DNA from: Bifidobacterium bifidum ATCC 29521 = JCM 1255 = DSM 20456 | GTDB lineage: Bacteria; Actinomycetota; Actinomycetes; Actinomycetales; Bifidobacteriaceae | NCBI RefSeq assembly: GCF_001025135.1 | Contig: NZ_AP012323.1 | Location: forward strand, 1,736,001-1,800,000 | Direction of reading: 5' to 3' | Length of the DNA: 64,000 bases | In this document: positions 14,537-30,799 of the stretch, piece by piece | How positions within the stretch are numbered: position 1 is the stretch's first letter | Layout: every line of letters starts with the position of its first letter | Notes under the pieces: model-generated | The model's database searches: none | What the model was told of the DNA's origin: nothing | The model's input: the letters and a program-made list of their open reading frames with translations, nothing else | Made by a program: the position numbers and the translations under genes

Positions 14537-14791
14537 ATGAAATTCGCAGCCATCATCAATCCTGAAGTACGCAAGCCGGCACCGAAACCGGTGCGCGTCG
14601 ACCTGCGCAAGACGTTCCTCATCGGCTGCGTGCTGTGGTCGGTCGCGCTGATCGTCAGCGCGATACTGCTCGCGTGCGGGCTGGATGTGCTGCAATTGCT
14701 CATCATGTGCGCGGCCGGACTGATCATCGGCGTCATGATGCTGGTATGGGAGCATTTCGACCGCTGGGATTACCGGCGTCTCGGCAACTGA
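14537..14791 (+). CDS. Small two-helix membrane protein, DUF2530-like
   Basis: An 84-residue protein with a basic N-terminal cytoplasmic segment (VRKPAPKPVRVDLRKTF) and two predicted membrane helices, about residues 29-48 and 52-70, ending in a charged tail with WEHFDRWDYRRLG. Length, topology and position beside central metabolism genes match the actinobacterial DUF2530 family, whose function is unknown. The upstream open frame to 14396 is the tail of serC in another frame and is not used. It is convergent with the kinase gene at 14798, only 6 nt apart. Confidence 0.7.
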   Translation: MKFAAIINPEVRKPAPKPVRVDLRKTFLIGCVLWSVALIVSAILLACGLDVLQLLIMCAAGLIIGVMMLVWEHFDRWDYRRLGN

Positions 14792-14797
14792 GCCGTA

Positions 14798-16066
14798 TCA
14801 GTCCCCCACCGGCAGCGACAGCGTGAACGTGCTGCCCTGCCCGGGAGCGCTCCACACCGTCACATCGCCGTGATGGGCGAGCGCCGCATGCTTGACGATC
14901 GCCAATCCCAGACCGATGCCGTCGGTCGTGCGCTCGTTCTGGTTGGAACCGCGGTAGAACCGTTCGAAGATACGGGGCAGATCGGCCTTCGGCACGCCCT
15001 CGCCATGATCGATGACACGCACCACGGCGTTCTTCCCGTCCGAAGACAGGGCGACGGAGACGCCGACCGCCCCGCCTGGGTGTGAATACACGATCGCATT
15101 CTCCACCATCTTGCGCACGGCCATGCGAATCTGATCGGCCTCCCCGTGAATCATCACGGGGCTCTTGCCGCCGACCCGCACCTGCACCCCGGCATCCCGC
15201 GCAGTGCCGGCAAGATCATCCACGGCCCCGGAAACCTGCGAGAACAGGTCGCAACGGTTCGCCTCCGAAGCCGTCACCGGCTCCTGAGCCTTAATCAGCA
15301 TCAGCAGGTCAGAGATCATGCGGTCGAGCCGCACACAGGAATGCCGCACCTGCCGCGCGTGGTTCGACAGCTGCTCGTGGCTCACGTCCGCGCTCTCCAA
15401 CGAATCGGCCAGCCGCTCCAGCGCGCGGGTCGGTTGCAGCAGCTGTTCGGAGACGTTCGATATGAACGAGTCTCGAATCTGAGCGAACCGGATCGACTCG
15501 CTGACATCGTTGATCAGCACGAGCACCAGATGGTCGCCGATGCGTCCCACCGTCACCTTCAGCCAGTTCGGCCGAGACGAGGCCTCTGCGGTCAGGCCGT
15601 CATCGGCAGCCGCGGCATCGAATCCGTTCATCGTCATGAACTGCTCCGGCGTCTGAGTCTCCAGGTCGAACGAGCACCGGGAACCGTCCTTCATCACCTT
15701 GTGCACCGCGTCAAGCAACGTAGGTTCGATCAGCGTGTCATCACGCACCAAGCCGAGTCTATAGGCCGCAGGATTGGCACGGACCACCTCGTCCTGATCG
15801 TCCACCACGACCGACGCCAGCGAGAGCATCGACAGCACCAGCTGGGTGGAGTCATCCAGATCATCGGCCGGCTCGTCATCCTCCTGACGACGGCGCGCGC
15901 CGCGACGCCGAGACTGCAACGACGGCAAGCGGTCATTGCTGCGCAGCGCGTTCATGATGACGGGCTGCAGCCGGTCCGCGATGAAAAAGCCGATTCCCGC
16001 CAATGCGGCCAGCGCCAATAGCGCGAAAACTACAAAAATCCATACCGACGGCTGAAACTGAGGCAT
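14798..16066 (-). CDS. SenX3-like sensor kinase homologue lacking the H-box histidine
   Basis: A 422-residue membrane protein: one helix at residues 9-30, a PAS-like region (about 75-190), a dimerisation domain (about 196-260) and an ATP-binding domain with N-box MVENAIVYSHPGG, G1 RVIDHGEGVPK, F-box RIFERFYRG and G2 GIGLGLAIVKHAA. In SenX3 the phospho-accepting histidine is in NVSHELKTP. Here the aligned stretch is NVSEQLLQP (residues 204-212), so His is replaced by Glu207 and the flanking Glu-Leu-Lys-Thr is also changed. Classical autophosphorylation therefore looks impossible although the ATP pocket is intact. No RegX3-type regulator is adjacent. GACAAT lies 6 nt upstream of the ATG (probably leaderless). 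It is divergent from phoU. Confidence 0.85.
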   Translation of the reverse strand: MPQFQPSVWIFVVFALLALAALAGIGFFIADRLQPVIMNALRSNDRLPSLQSRRRGARRRQEDDEPADDLDDSTQLVLSMLSLASVVVDDQDEVVRANPAAYRLGLVRDDTLIEPTLLDAVHKVMKDGSRCSFDLETQTPEQFMTMNGFDAAAADDGLTAEASSRPNWLKVTVGRIGDHLVLVLINDVSESIRFAQIRDSFISNVSEQLLQPTRALERLADSLESADVSHEQLSNHARQVRHSCVRLDRMISDLLMLIKAQEPVTASEANRCDLFSQVSGAVDDLAGTARDAGVQVRVGGKSPVMIHGEADQIRMAVRKMVENAIVYSHPGGAVGVSVALSSDGKNAVVRVIDHGEGVPKADLPRIFERFYRGSNQNERTTDGIGLGLAIVKHAALAHHGDVTVWSAPGQGSTFTLSLPVGD

Positions 16067-16249
16067 GGTTCCATTGTCTCACACCGAGAGGCGACATGCG
16101 GCGAACGTGAATTCCGGGTGAACCAGCCAATGAATTTTGAGACAATTTCAAGAACCTGACCGCCACGCACTAGGCAAACACAGCTTATGCGGCTTACACT
16201 TGATAGAGGTTCCATCAAGAGCAACTACATAGCATGAAAGGCTACAACA

Positions 16250-16930
16250 ATGCGCGTTATTTTTGACGAGGAGCTCAAGGCCGTTGCCGATGACCTCGAT
16301 CGCATGGTGCAAGACGTGCGCAAGGCCATCAACGGGGCCGGAGACGCCTTGCTGAAGCAGGATGTCGAAGCCGCCCAGAGCGTCATCGACGGCGACATCG
16401 AGATCGATGCCCTCGAATCCAGCGTCATCGACCAGTGCATCCGTCTGCTCGCCAAGCAGAACCCGGTGGCGACCGACCTGCGAGTCGTCGTATCGACGCT
16501 GCGGCTCGCTGCGACCTTCGAGCGCATGGGCGATTTGGCGAAGCACATCGCCGAAGCTGCACGCCGCATCTACCCCGAACCGGCGCTGCCGGCCGAGGCC
16601 ACGGAGCTGTTCACCGAGATGCAGCAGTTCCTGTCGATGACCGCCGACCGCATCGTCGTCATGCTGCAGGACCGCGACGCCAAAACCGCCGAGGAGATCA
16701 TCCTCGACGACGACAAGCTCGACGCGCTGCACCACAAGACCTTCGACCTGGCTCTGTCCGACAAGTGGACCGGCAGCCGTCAGCAGCTGATCGACGTCGT
16801 GCTGCTCGGCCGCTTCATGGAGCGTCTTGGCGACCACGCCGTGTCGGCCTCCCGCCGCGTCGTGTACATCGTGTCCGGCTTCGATCCGAGCAAGGAGCCG
16901 TCGCGCGACGAGGACGGCGCCGTCGAGTGA
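16250..16930 (+). CDS. phoU: Phosphate transport system regulatory protein PhoU
   Basis: A 226-residue, all-helical protein with two PhoU repeats (about 6-95 and 117-205). Metal-binding acidic motifs are visible: E-x-x-x-D in the first repeat (VIDGDIEIDALES) and EEIILDDDKLDALH in the second. PhoU senses phosphate status through the Pst transporter and restrains the partner kinase. No pst genes are in the window; the divergent gene is the SenX3-like kinase homologue, which keeps the senX3-phoU association. GAAAGG is 8 nt before the ATG. A clear terminator follows at 17001-17034. Confidence 0.95.
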   Translation: MRVIFDEELKAVADDLDRMVQDVRKAINGAGDALLKQDVEAAQSVIDGDIEIDALESSVIDQCIRLLAKQNPVATDLRVVVSTLRLAATFERMGDLAKHIAEAARRIYPEPALPAEATELFTEMQQFLSMTADRIVVMLQDRDAKTAEEIILDDDKLDALHHKTFDLALSDKWTGSRQQLIDVVLLGRFMERLGDHAVSASRRVVYIVSGFDPSKEPSRDEDGAVE

Positions 16931-17464: not shown

Positions 17465-18205
17465 TCACTTCTGGCCCTGAGCGGCGACGGCGGCGGCACC
17501 GGCGGCGGCGGCCTCCGGGTCCAGGTACTCGCCACGCGGCTTGACCGGCTTGAAGTTCTCGTCCAGCTCGTAGAGCAGCGGGATGGCGGTCGGGATGTTG
17601 ACCTTGGCGATCTCGTCCTCGGACAGGTTGTCGAGCATCTTGACGATGGCACGCAGCGAGTTGCCGTGGGCGGCGATCAGCACGGTCTTGCCGGCGCGCA
17701 GCTCAGGCTCGATGGCGGACTCGAAGTAGGGCTTGACACGCTCGACGACGTTGGCCAGGCACTCGGCTTCCGGAACCGGGTCACCGGCGTAACGCGGGTC
17801 GTGGTTCTGCGCGTACTGGTCGTTCGGGTCGATCTCGGGCGGCGGGGTCGCGTAGGAGCGACGCCACAGCATGAACTTCTCGTCACCGTACTCCTGACGA
17901 ATCTCGGTCTTGTTCTTGCCCTGCAGAGCGCCGTAGTGACGCTCGTTGAGACGCCAGTCACGCTGAACCGGAATCCACAGGCGATCGGCGGCATCCAGTG
18001 CGATGTTGGCGGTATTGATGGCACGACGCAGCAGGGAGGTGAAGACGATGTCCGGCAGGACGTTCTTCTCCTTGAGCAGCTCGCCACCACGCTTGGCTTC
18101 GGCTTCGCCCTGCTCGGTCAGCGGGACGTCCACCCAGCCGGTGAACTGATTGGTCTTGTTCCATGCGCTCTGTCCGTGACGGAGCAGTACTAGTTTATAA
18201 GTCAT
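17465..18205 (-). CDS. gpmA: 2,3-bisphosphoglycerate-dependent phosphoglycerate mutase
   Basis: A 246-residue glycolytic enzyme interconverting 3- and 2-phosphoglycerate. The phospho-histidine is His10 in [10 protein letters not shown]. The second conserved His is in [15 protein letters not shown], and [14 protein letters not shown] and the long insertion after RRSYATPPP are those of the cofactor-dependent family. The C-terminus carries an Ala-rich tail. The frame is open to 18286, but [11 protein letters not shown] at 18205 is the family start and TAGACT lies 7 nt before it. The gene is 77 nt from the prenyltransferase on the same strand. Confidence 0.96.
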
Positions 18206-18212
18206 AACTCGC

Positions 18213-18218
18213 AGTCTA
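18213..18218 (-). promoter_or_regulatory. -10 box of leaderless gpmA transcript
   Basis: TAGACT on the minus strand, 7 nt before the ATG, with no Shine-Dalgarno sequence. Confidence 0.55.
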
Positions 18219-18282
18219 CCGCTCAGCCCGGCCAAATTCGAGCCTTTGTTCACCGTTTCGCCGAACGCTTGCGCAGGAATAC

Positions 18283-19248
18283 TCACACCATCAGCGAAAT
18301 CAGCAGGATGACGGCGAAGAACGGGGGCTGGAAGCAGGCGTCCGACAGCGCTTTGCGGAATTCCTTACGGCCCGTGCTGGTCACCATGCGCCACGGCACG
18401 CCGATGCCGGACAGCATGAGGATGCCGCCCCACGGCGTCCACAGCAGCATCACCACCCACACGCCGATCGCCCATGCGACGACGCAGCAGACGCCCAGCA
18501 TCACGCGGGCGCCACGCTCCCCCATGCGCACTGCGAGCGTGCGCTTGCCATGCCGGCGATCCTCGTTGATGTCACGCAGGTTGTTCACCATCAGTATCTG
18601 GCATGACAACAGCCCCGCGACAACCGCGCACAACACGCCGAGCACGCTGACCGAACCGCTCAGCGCATACTGCGTGCCAAGCACGGCGGCCAAACCGAAG
18701 AACAGGAACACCGAGAGTTCGCCGAATCCCGCATATCCGTATGGATGCTTGCCTCCGGTGTAGAACCAGCCGGCCAGCAGGCAAAGCACGCCGACCAGCA
18801 GCAGCCACCACGCCTGTGACAGGACGACGGCGACGAGGCCGCACACGCAGGCCAGCAGAGCGCTCACCACGGCGGCGACGAGTACATGCTTCGCCGGAAC
18901 CAGGCCGGACGCGGTCAGCCGCATGGGCTTCTTGGTCTTCTTCTCACTGCCACCGCGGCCCTCATCGACACCGCGGATGCCATCGGAATAGTCATTGGCG
19001 TAGTTCACCGCGATCTGCAGTAACACGCCCACGCACACGCACAGCAGCGTGACGAGCCAGAACCGAGACATCATCGCCTGCGCATCGGCGGTGACCGCCG
19101 CGCATTGCGACGTGTCGGACCGGGTCTGCGCGCAGTTGAGATCGCCCACGATCACCGGATACGCGCAGCATGCGCCCACCGCCACGGAGGACAGGGAGGT
19201 CGTCAAGGTTTTCGGGCGTGCGCCGGATATCCACAGTTTCACAGTCAT
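18283..19248 (-). CDS. menA: UbiA-family prenyltransferase, MenA-like
   Basis: A 321-residue membrane protein with about eight or nine hydrophobic helices. The first aspartate-rich motif [12 protein letters not shown] (about residues 81-92) and the second [19 protein letters not shown] (about 217-235) are those of 1,4-dihydroxy-2-naphthoate octaprenyltransferase. MenA attaches the isoprenoid tail in menaquinone synthesis. No other men gene is in the window, and fermentative bifidobacteria are generally thought not to make menaquinone, so the real acceptor is open. TACACT lies 7 nt before the ATG (leaderless). Confidence 0.85.
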
Positions 19249-28523: not shown

Positions 28524-29969
28524 ATGATCCAGCCGAACAACCCATACCGGCAGCCGCACGCGCCCCGTCGGACGCAATGGCAGGCCCGCCGCGCCCAACC
28601 GCCGTCCGCCGCGCCGAGCCTGCCATTGATGCGCCCGCGGAACGGGCGCGTCCTCGTCGGCGTGTGCCGTGGCGTGAGCCTACATCTGGGAGCGCCCGTA
28701 TGGCTGGTGCGACTCGCGTTCGCCGCGGCCGCTCTCGCGTTCGGGGCCGGCGTCATCGCATACGTGTTCCTGTGGATGTTCATGCCGGTCGGCGATCCCG
28801 TCGCCGCCGCGCAGGCCATGTCGGATGCGGCCTCGACAGGTTTCGCCGAGCCGCTCTCCCGCGGTAATGCGGCATACGCCGGCACCGCGGGTGACAGTGG
28901 CCGCAGCGACGCCGACGACTCCTCGGAGGGACTGGCGGCGGCTCTGCGCCGCGCCCCGAAACCTTCACTGGTGGCATTGGCCGGTCTGGTGTTCATCGCC
29001 ATAAGCGTGCTGCTGTCGTTTGCCGGCGGACGGGAGCTGATCGTGCCGCTGGCCGTCGCCGTCGGCGGCCTCGGACTGGCATGGTCGCGGTTTGACGCGG
29101 ACGAGGGCAAACTGCCATCGATGCTTGGCGGCATCGTGCTTCTGTTCGTCGGCTATGCGATCTTCGTGTTCACCAGCACGGTTCCGGGGTGGGGCGCGTC
29201 CCCTCGCCGCATCATCATCGGCGGGTTCGTACTGCTGGCCGGCACGGCTCTGGCGATCGTGCCTTGGGTGAGCACGCTCATCCGCTCCCTATCCACCGAG
29301 CGCGCACTCAAGGAGCGTGAAGAGGAACGTGCCGACATGACCGCGCACCTGCACGATGGCGTGCTGCAGACGCTCGCCCTGATCCAGCTGCACAGCGACG
29401 ACCCGCAGACCGTGTTCTCGCTCGCCCGGCAGCAGGAGCGCGAACTGCGCGAATGGCTGTATCAGGAACGCACCACATCGGACCGTTCGGTCAGCGCCGG
29501 GCTGAAGGCCATCGCCGCGCAGACGGAAGACGAGCACGGCAAACCGATCGAAGTGGTGACCGTGGGCGACGCGAGGCCCAGTGCCCAGACCGACGCGCTG
29601 CTCGATGCCACGCAGCAGGCGCTCATCAACGCCGTGACGCATGGCGGCGAGCCCATCTCCGTGTATTGCGAGGCCGGCGCCGACAAGGTTGAGGTCTTCG
29701 TGCGCGATCATGGCGATGGGTTCGACGTGAACGCGATTCCCGAGGGCCGGCTCGGCATCCGCGAGTCGATCATCGGGCGGATCCGACGACGGGGCGGTAC
29801 AGTGGAGATCGTATCGAGGCCGCATTGGGGCACCGAGGTGCGCATGCACATGCCGGTCGCAGGCGGACGGCAACCGAACCAGCGGGGCGATGCCACGAAC
29901 GCCGGCGGGCAGCATGGACGACCGCCATCCGGCGCGGCATCATACACACGCACGCAGAGGGAAACATGA
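28524..29969 (+). CDS. PspC-domain histidine kinase (NarL/LiaS type)
   Basis: A 481-residue sensor kinase. An N-terminal PspC domain (about 33-92: GRVLVGVCRGVSLHLGAPVWLVRLAF) is followed by several membrane helices (about 145-260) and a HisKA_3 dimerisation region with the phospho-histidine in TAHLHDGVLQTLALIQLH. The HATPase_c domain then follows with N-box ATQQALINAVTHGG, G1 VRDHGDGFD and GTEVRMHMP. A fused PspC input domain indicates a membrane-stress sensor. The stop overlaps the regulator start (ATGA). The frame is open to 28491, and the exact start (28524 here) is not certain. Confidence 0.9.
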   Translation: MIQPNNPYRQPHAPRRTQWQARRAQPPSAAPSLPLMRPRNGRVLVGVCRGVSLHLGAPVWLVRLAFAAAALAFGAGVIAYVFLWMFMPVGDPVAAAQAMSDAASTGFAEPLSRGNAAYAGTAGDSGRSDADDSSEGLAAALRRAPKPSLVALAGLVFIAISVLLSFAGGRELIVPLAVAVGGLGLAWSRFDADEGKLPSMLGGIVLLFVGYAIFVFTSTVPGWGASPRRIIIGGFVLLAGTALAIVPWVSTLIRSLSTERALKEREEERADMTAHLHDGVLQTLALIQLHSDDPQTVFSLARQQERELREWLYQERTTSDRSVSAGLKAIAAQTEDEHGKPIEVVTVGDARPSAQTDALLDATQQALINAVTHGGEPISVYCEAGADKVEVFVRDHGDGFDVNAIPEGRLGIRESIIGRIRRRGGTVEIVSRPHWGTEVRMHMPVAGGRQPNQRGDATNAGGQHGRPPSGAASYTRTQRET

Positions 29970-30799
29970 TTCGACAGGTGAAGCATATGGGTCAGGCAGA
30001 CAGCACAAGCATCGGACCGACATCAGGAGCGGATGCGAGGCAAGGGGCGGCCGGTGAGTTCGGCAGCGTGGAGTGCAACGACGTGGAGTCCGGCAGAGCC
30101 ACTGATACGGATACCACTCCCCGCGAAGCTGCGGCGACGCCGATTCGCGTGGCCGTCGTCGACGACCATGAGATGTTCCGCGCCGGTGTCATCGCCACGC
30201 TGCAGCCGTACTTCCACATCGTCGGGCAGGCCGCCGACGTGGAAGGCTCGATCGCGATGATCGCCGACATCAGACCGGACGTGGTGCTGCTCGACGTGCA
30301 CGTACCCGGCGGCGAGGGAGGAGGAGGCGCGGAGATCCTCGCCAAATCGCAGCCGCTCTCCCCCGCTTCCGCGTTCCTGGCGCTGTCGGTGTCGGATTCG
30401 CCGCAGGACGTCGGCTCGGTGATTCGTGCCGGCGCACGCGGATACGTTACCAAAACCATCACCGGCGACGATCTGATCTCATCCATCAAGCAGGTGCACG
30501 AAGGGTATGCGGTGTTCTCGCCGAAACTGGCCGGATTCGTGCTGTCCGCCTTCCAGGGGGCGCCGATGGACGGGGCCGGCGGCGCGCGGGGCCGCGACGA
30601 GGAGCTGGACCTGCTGTCAGGCCGCGAGCAGGAGGTCATGCGCCTGATCGCCCGCGGATACACATACAAGGAGGTCGCCGCCGAATTGTTCATCTCCATC
30701 AAGACCGTGGAGACCCACATGTCAAACGTGCTGCGCAAATTGCAGCTGTCCAACCGCACTGAACTGACCCGCTGGGCAGCCGACCGCCGCATCGTATGA
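29966..30799 (+). CDS. NarL/LuxR-family response regulator
   Basis: A 277-residue regulator paired with the preceding kinase. About 60 non-homologous N-terminal residues precede the receiver domain: RVAVVDDHEMFR (acidic pair), phospho-acceptor Asp in VVLLDVHVPGG, and the conserved Lys in YVTKTITGDD. The C-terminal LuxR HTH has LSGREQEVMRLIARGYTYKEVAAELFISIKTVETHMSNVLRKL. ATG 29966 overlaps the kinase stop; a second in-frame ATG at 29987 is possible. Probable targets are its own locus and the divergent pspC gene, but no operator can be shown. Confidence 0.92.
   Translation: MIRQVKHMGQADSTSIGPTSGADARQGAAGEFGSVECNDVESGRATDTDTTPREAAATPIRVAVVDDHEMFRAGVIATLQPYFHIVGQAADVEGSIAMIADIRPDVVLLDVHVPGGEGGGGAEILAKSQPLSPASAFLALSVSDSPQDVGSVIRAGARGYVTKTITGDDLISSIKQVHEGYAVFSPKLAGFVLSAFQGAPMDGAGGARGRDEELDLLSGREQEVMRLIARGYTYKEVAAELFISIKTVETHMSNVLRKLQLSNRTELTRWAADRRIV

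Follow-up and report, generated by a model that had tools for sequence, protein, structure and literature searches.

In Mycobacterium smegmatis, phosphate sensing by the histidine kinase SenX3 requires its PAS domain, with neither the membrane anchor nor the Pst transporter being required, and purified PhoU alone together with phosphate shifts SenX3 toward phosphatase activity (PMC12301784). In Salmonella, PhoU contacts PhoR at its kinase domain as well as at its PAS domain (PMC9239213). The phosphatase motif that follows the phospho-accepting His of such kinases is E/DxxT/N, with Thr at position +4 as its phosphatase residue (PMC11502775). Proteins with a kinase-like architecture can also signal in other ways. 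DivL has Tyr at the phospho-acceptor site, a conserved regulator-binding patch, weak ATP binding and a dispensable CA domain (PMC4211667). NifL of Azotobacter vinelandii combines PAS with a kinase-like domain that does not hydrolyse the ATP/ADP it binds; the protein works through binding to a partner, which nucleotide stabilises and in which the small nutrient-sensing protein GlnK takes part (PMC9866876). For bifidobacteria, PhoR-PhoP is described as conserved in Bifidobacterium breve in a paper (doi 10.1128/AEM.00804-12) known here through its citation in PMC10329679. The literature found on bifidobacterial phosphate or senX3 covers this His-bearing pair or uses the senX3 label without the motif; none of the pseudo-histidine kinase literature found concerns bifidobacteria, and subscription journals may hold an earlier mention.

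The locus described here lies in a 64,000-nucleotide stretch of Bifidobacterium bifidum ATCC 29521 (contig NZ_AP012323.1, positions 1,736,001–1,800,000; hereafter the window, whose numbering is used throughout). An open reading frame at 14798–16066 on the minus strand, which contains RDSFISNVSEQLLQPTRALERL in translation, encodes a 422-residue paralogue of SenX3/PhoR identified by Pfam, orthologue alignment and tree as a His-less pseudo-histidine kinase (below, the pseudokinase). Its layout is the PAS-DHp-CA arrangement of the SenX3/PhoR type, with all parts on the minus strand. An N-terminal helix (residues 6–42; 15941–16051) probably spans the membrane once, judging from the predicted model and the hydrophobic sequence. 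The PAS-like domain (residues 72–187; 15506–15853) is too diverged for Pfam: its PAS_9 match is weak (E 0.17) and the block is delimited on the predicted model. The DHp helices (residues 189–260; 15287–15502) are placed by predicted model and conservation, and the HisKA match reaches 15.4 bits against a Pfam cut-off of 26.9 (19 bits in a six-frame search). The CA domain (residues 270–420; 14807–15259), placed by Pfam, predicted model and alignment, has a clear HATPase_c match (5.7e-26). The same imbalance recurs in 23 diverse orthologues, where HATPase_c is matched in 23/23 and HisKA in 7/23 at E 0.1. The H-box (residues 204–212; 15431–15457) reads NVSEQLLQP where active relatives have NVSHELKTP, and the codon GAA at 15446–15448 places Glu207 in the position of the phospho-accepting His. 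DivL, too, is characterized by a kinase fold in which a residue other than His occupies this site.

The 183-base intergenic region at 16067–16249 separates the pseudokinase gene from the divergent phoU gene (16250–16930, plus strand; 226 residues; PF01895 1.4e-33, TIGR02135 phoU_full over cut-off). On the other side, a small DUF2530-like membrane protein is encoded convergently at 14540–14791 on the plus strand; its match (E 1.4e-4) is under the cut-off and it is a conserved neighbour. Phosphoglyceromutase (gpm; 17465–18286, minus strand) lies beyond phoU, and is next to phoU in outgroup senX3 loci too. With serC and menA these genes make up the flanks, and no response regulator adjoins the pseudokinase. 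The substitution in the H-box and the lack of an adjacent regulator, both reported in the earlier note, are thereby confirmed, and its view that conventional autophosphorylation is unlikely is supported, with none expected. The window also holds a second HATPase and response-regulator pair (29592–30487, plus strand), which is unrelated to the phosphate locus.

Orthologues were found in 96 of 112 Bifidobacterium genomes, six or more further genera of the family also have them, and the set analysed comprises 128 sequences from the Bifidobacteriaceae. They were compared with 58 active relatives, namely 20 SenX3 proteins from the same order but outside the Bifidobacteriaceae and 38 bifidobacterial PhoR entries, which count the PhoR of the window genome twice. 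At the phospho-acceptor position the orthologues have Glu (100), Gln (13), Arg (6), Asp (3), Val (2), Asn (2) or Thr (2); His is found in 0/128 of the aligned orthologues and in 58/58 active relatives (38/38 PhoR entries, 20/20 outgroup SenX3), which excludes chance, an isolated mutation or a sequencing error. The earlier note proposed an alignment across bifidobacteria to see if Glu is universal; it is the loss of His that is universal (128/128), whereas Glu itself is present in only 100/128. In a collection of named genomes the sole bifidobacterial orthologue, from B. simiiventris, has the H-box NVSEQLIKP, and the other 79 loci, from other Actinobacteria and Firmicutes, nearly all have SHEL or GHEL, with no motif read in one of them (L293). 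In the most diverged likely orthologue (L245, genome G184), which is truncated by a contig end, the entire H-box is gone.

The losses extend well beyond the His. The +1 position is Glu in 58/58 active proteins and Gln in 120/128 orthologues, and an acid is absent there in 128/128. The +3 Lys is mostly replaced by a hydrophobic residue and the +4 Thr is variable, the corresponding segment in the window being QLLQ. The first N-box Asn is present in 58/58 active proteins and 0/128 orthologues, where Lys takes its place in 124 (Lys319, codon 15110–15112, in the window) and Arg, Arg, Glu and Cys in the rest, and drift is seen in the ATP lid (D374, R377, T381). This Asn helps to hold Mg in GHKL proteins, so nucleotide binding by the pseudokinase could be Mg-independent or ADP-favouring, and the change to Lys together with the drifted lid suggests that it may be weak or Mg-independent. 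By contrast with these losses, N323, D353, G355, G357, the F box (F367, R369, F370), R372, G385, K392 and H393 are invariant in 128/128 and G387 is kept in 127/128. As read from the alignment, the nucleotide pocket is preserved with one catalytic-type residue lost; the earlier statement that the ATP-binding motifs are intact is almost correct, the exceptions being the first N-box Asn and several lid residues. The docking face for response regulators, which we take from general knowledge of DHp structure to comprise H+4, +7, +8, +10, +11, +14, +15 and the start of helix 2, has an entropy of mostly 2–3.4 bits in the pseudokinases versus about 0 in PhoR, and the DHp core is fixed (F201, L209, L216, L219, A237, D253, L254, L257, Q261). 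Other positions have become newly fixed relative to active relatives: T137, T139, R165, N167 and W168 in the PAS region (T137, R165 and W168 in 128/128, T139 in 127/128), D253 at the DHp base, and Q312, K319 and Q376 in the CA domain. Such coordinated loss accompanied by new fixed residues looks like a changed job rather than decay.

A tree built from the PAS-DHp-CA region with the H-box left out places all pseudokinases in one clade (SH-aLRT 100) and bifidobacterial PhoR in another (100); both fall among the SenX3 proteins of the order, where their proximity to one another is weakly supported (87). Outgroup loci have the order gpm, phoU and, divergent from it, senX3-regX3, in some cases followed by pstSCAB. 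In the Bifidobacteriaceae the senX3 slot beside phoU is occupied by the pseudokinase, and phoR-phoP-pstSCAB forms a separate operon. Tree and locus together show that the pseudokinase is a member of the SenX3/PhoR family by descent. From its sequence, neither phosphorylation nor dephosphorylation of RegX3/PhoP would be predicted. Five HisKA kinases of the ordinary kind are encoded in the window genome, all with an OmpR-type regulator close by, and the pseudokinase makes a sixth; the active PhoR has NVSHELKTP and its own regulator and lies beside pstSCAB (L128). The RegX3/PhoP-like regulator for which the earlier note suggested searching therefore exists, but it is paired with His-bearing PhoR elsewhere in the genome rather than orphaned, and no second regulator of this type was found in that genome. 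A separate orphan OmpR-type regulator (L335, 1381–2187; genome C1:1971380–1972186), with an atypical receiver undetected by Pfam Response_reg, resembles actinobacterial GlnR as judged by eye.

Distribution was assessed by scanning 189 Bifidobacteriaceae genomes, with counts compiled by hand and thresholds set on bimodal E-values (about 1e-55 for the pseudokinase, 1e-80 for PhoP). Every genome counted with a pseudokinase has phoU and pst, and no pseudokinase without phoU was seen in these scans. PhoP is absent in 49 pseudokinase-bearing genomes, which corresponds to 9–11 changes on the 128-sequence tree, and the pst loci of eight PhoP-less genomes, read directly, contain no phoR or phoP. In one genome (G164) the pseudokinase gene is divergent from phoU and stands immediately ahead of pstSCAB, with the regulator absent. 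Three loci of one genus (L154, L155 and L251 in genus g8) have the pseudokinase directly 5' of pstS-pstC (pstSCAB in L251), so that it replaces senX3-regX3 at the head of the pst operon, with no response regulator. Two genomes have diverged PhoR-PhoP pairs in which His was read directly (G022, L243; G154, L244), the phoR and phoP genes of G022 being on opposite strands and not in one operon, and at another locus (L240, G007) one phoR-phoP pair precedes two tandem pstSCAB sets. In the genus set, genomes without the pseudokinase also lack PhoR-PhoP and mostly retain phoU. In six loci (L176–L181) the pseudokinase is cleanly missing between phoU and the DUF2530 gene, with phoU and pst retained, which indicates that the gene is dispensable in such family members. 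PhoU itself differs with this distribution: R105 (codon at about 16562–16564 of the window) and F5 are invariant in 125/125 pseudokinase loci and replaced in 14/14 examined genomes without pseudokinase and PhoR (L176–L181, L337–L344), a pattern that is suggestive only and may reflect a single event because these 14 genomes are probably one clade.

Median pairwise dN/dS is 0.135 (35 non-overlapping pairs; 0.094 in the DHp and 0.092 in the CA domain), compared with 0.067 for phoU and 0.088 for PhoR, and nearly all orthologues have open frames; the gene is under purifying selection. The pseudokinase is therefore not a pseudogene with broken frames, and a decaying relic without function, which might have been proposed from the loss of a signature kinase residue and the missing gene in some family members, is barely credible and is refuted by the dN/dS values together with the residues invariant over 128 sequences. 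Both outcomes that the earlier note considered fatal to its proposal, His in sister strains and relaxed selection, have thus failed to appear. Nor is the protein likely to be the phosphatase that was offered as one option: a canonical phosphatase of PhoP is contradicted because both key positions of the E/DxxT/N motif have been lost and the docking face is unconserved. The suggestion that Glu207 mimics phospho-His and locks the protein permanently 'on' accords with Glu being the commonest residue at the site, and is weakened because Gln, Arg, Asp, Asn, Val and Thr are also accepted, with at least 13 Glu/non-Glu changes by parsimony on the tree (20 over all states) and no return to His; the +1 and N-box losses suggest that the chemistry was abandoned rather than mimicked, and we regard mimicry as improbable. 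Chemistry by another route, such as ATP-dependent phosphorylation of a different residue or of PhoU, or a non-canonical phosphatase activity, would account for the G1, F and G2 residues being fixed family-wide, but the complete loss of the first N-box Asn and of the +1 acid (each 128/128), the drifted lid and the missing phosphatase Thr leave it a very slim chance.

Two other readings would keep the pseudokinase tied to a two-component pair. It could form mixed dimers with active PhoR as a dominant-negative or allosteric subunit that tunes the kinase/phosphatase balance; shared ancestry, a conserved DHp dimer core and the presence of PhoR-PhoP alongside it in the majority of Bifidobacterium genomes are consistent with this, as is the higher frequency of Glu207 where PhoP is in the genome (83/91 sequences versus 17/37 without). 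The Glu-PhoP association is not significant on eight independent pairs, however, and serves as no more than a lead, and the 49 PhoP-less genomes keep the pseudokinase with dN/dS no higher (median about 0.135, 7 pairs), so a strict PhoR-PhoP-only modulator is weakened and mixed dimerization appears unlikely. Alternatively, the protein could bind a response regulator, PhoP or another, and relay its state without kinase activity, in the manner of a reversed receiver sensor. DivL provides the precedent (PMC4211667), and its structure 4q20 is among the nearest solved structures by sequence (E 7.2e-20), but DivL orthologues conserve the docking patch near Tyr, whereas the corresponding face is variable in the pseudokinase, and the genome has no spare RegX3/PhoP regulator; we consider this highly improbable.

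The phosphorylation site and docking face are lost, yet the gene is under selection, so the pseudokinase probably signals by binding, with PhoU as the likeliest partner. The best-supported model makes it a PAS-containing protein that binds nucleotide and partners PhoU, and through PhoU also Pst, with no phosphotransfer in its signalling, since retention of PAS, dimer and CA domains with the regulator face dropped means that the parts that would meet PhoU have been kept; we judge it about evenly balanced between right and wrong. Of the roles offered in the earlier note, a scaffold fits best, in the form of a PhoU-linked and nucleotide-dependent one. We infer nucleotide binding, PhoU binding and an effect on phosphate uptake as the three components of such a role. 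A SenX3/PhoR duplicate would have remained in the ancestral slot next to phoU and been converted to a pseudo-histidine kinase no later than the base of the Bifidobacteriaceae. It would have retained the membrane anchor, PAS domain, DHp dimer and nucleotide-binding CA domain, and dispensed with phosphorylation, with the classical motif for phosphatase activity and with the face that docks a response regulator. PAS- and nucleotide-gated binding to PhoU could then set the amount or form of free PhoU, which would act on the Pst transporter and, where present, on the active PhoR-PhoP pair. Extended to the whole family, the pseudokinase would be a phosphotransfer-free adaptor for phosphate signalling: gated by nucleotide and by its PAS domain, it would partner PhoU, control phosphate uptake directly and no longer use response regulators at all; we advance this broader proposal tentatively, at somewhat less than an even chance. 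If true, it would explain why PhoU and Pst are retained in bifidobacteria without PhoR-PhoP.

Dozens of bifidobacterial genomes have lost the kinase-regulator pair and still have PhoU, Pst and a dead kinase, which makes signalling by binding alone testable. Confirmation would add a pseudo-histidine kinase beyond the well-studied DivL. Pseudokinase genes can be annotated as senX3 or sensor kinase, and such labels would mislead reconstructions of bifidobacterial networks. The SenX3 (PhoR) proteins of Actinobacteria are the closest homologues by sequence and tree and share the PAS-DHp-CA layout and the slot divergent from phoU and near gpm; unlike them, the pseudokinase is without the His, the +1 Glu, the phosphatase Thr and the first N-box Asn, has a variable docking face and has no RegX3 neighbour. 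Active bifidobacterial PhoR is a paralogue about 35% identical to it that keeps NVSHELKTP and a regulator of its own. DivL of Caulobacter and relatives, the nearest known pseudo-histidine kinase, likewise has a kinase fold in which His is replaced and PAS and DHp-CA are kept (PMC4211667), in an unrelated genomic setting and pathway. The features that DivL retains are close to the reverse of those retained here: its conserved docking patch is not found in the pseudokinase, which has lost this face and holds the nucleotide site of its CA domain mostly fixed. NifL belongs to another family and pathway, has a conserved His of its own and inhibits an activator, NifA; it is nevertheless the nearest working model for the pseudokinase, by a likeness in proposed mode of action and not by orthology.
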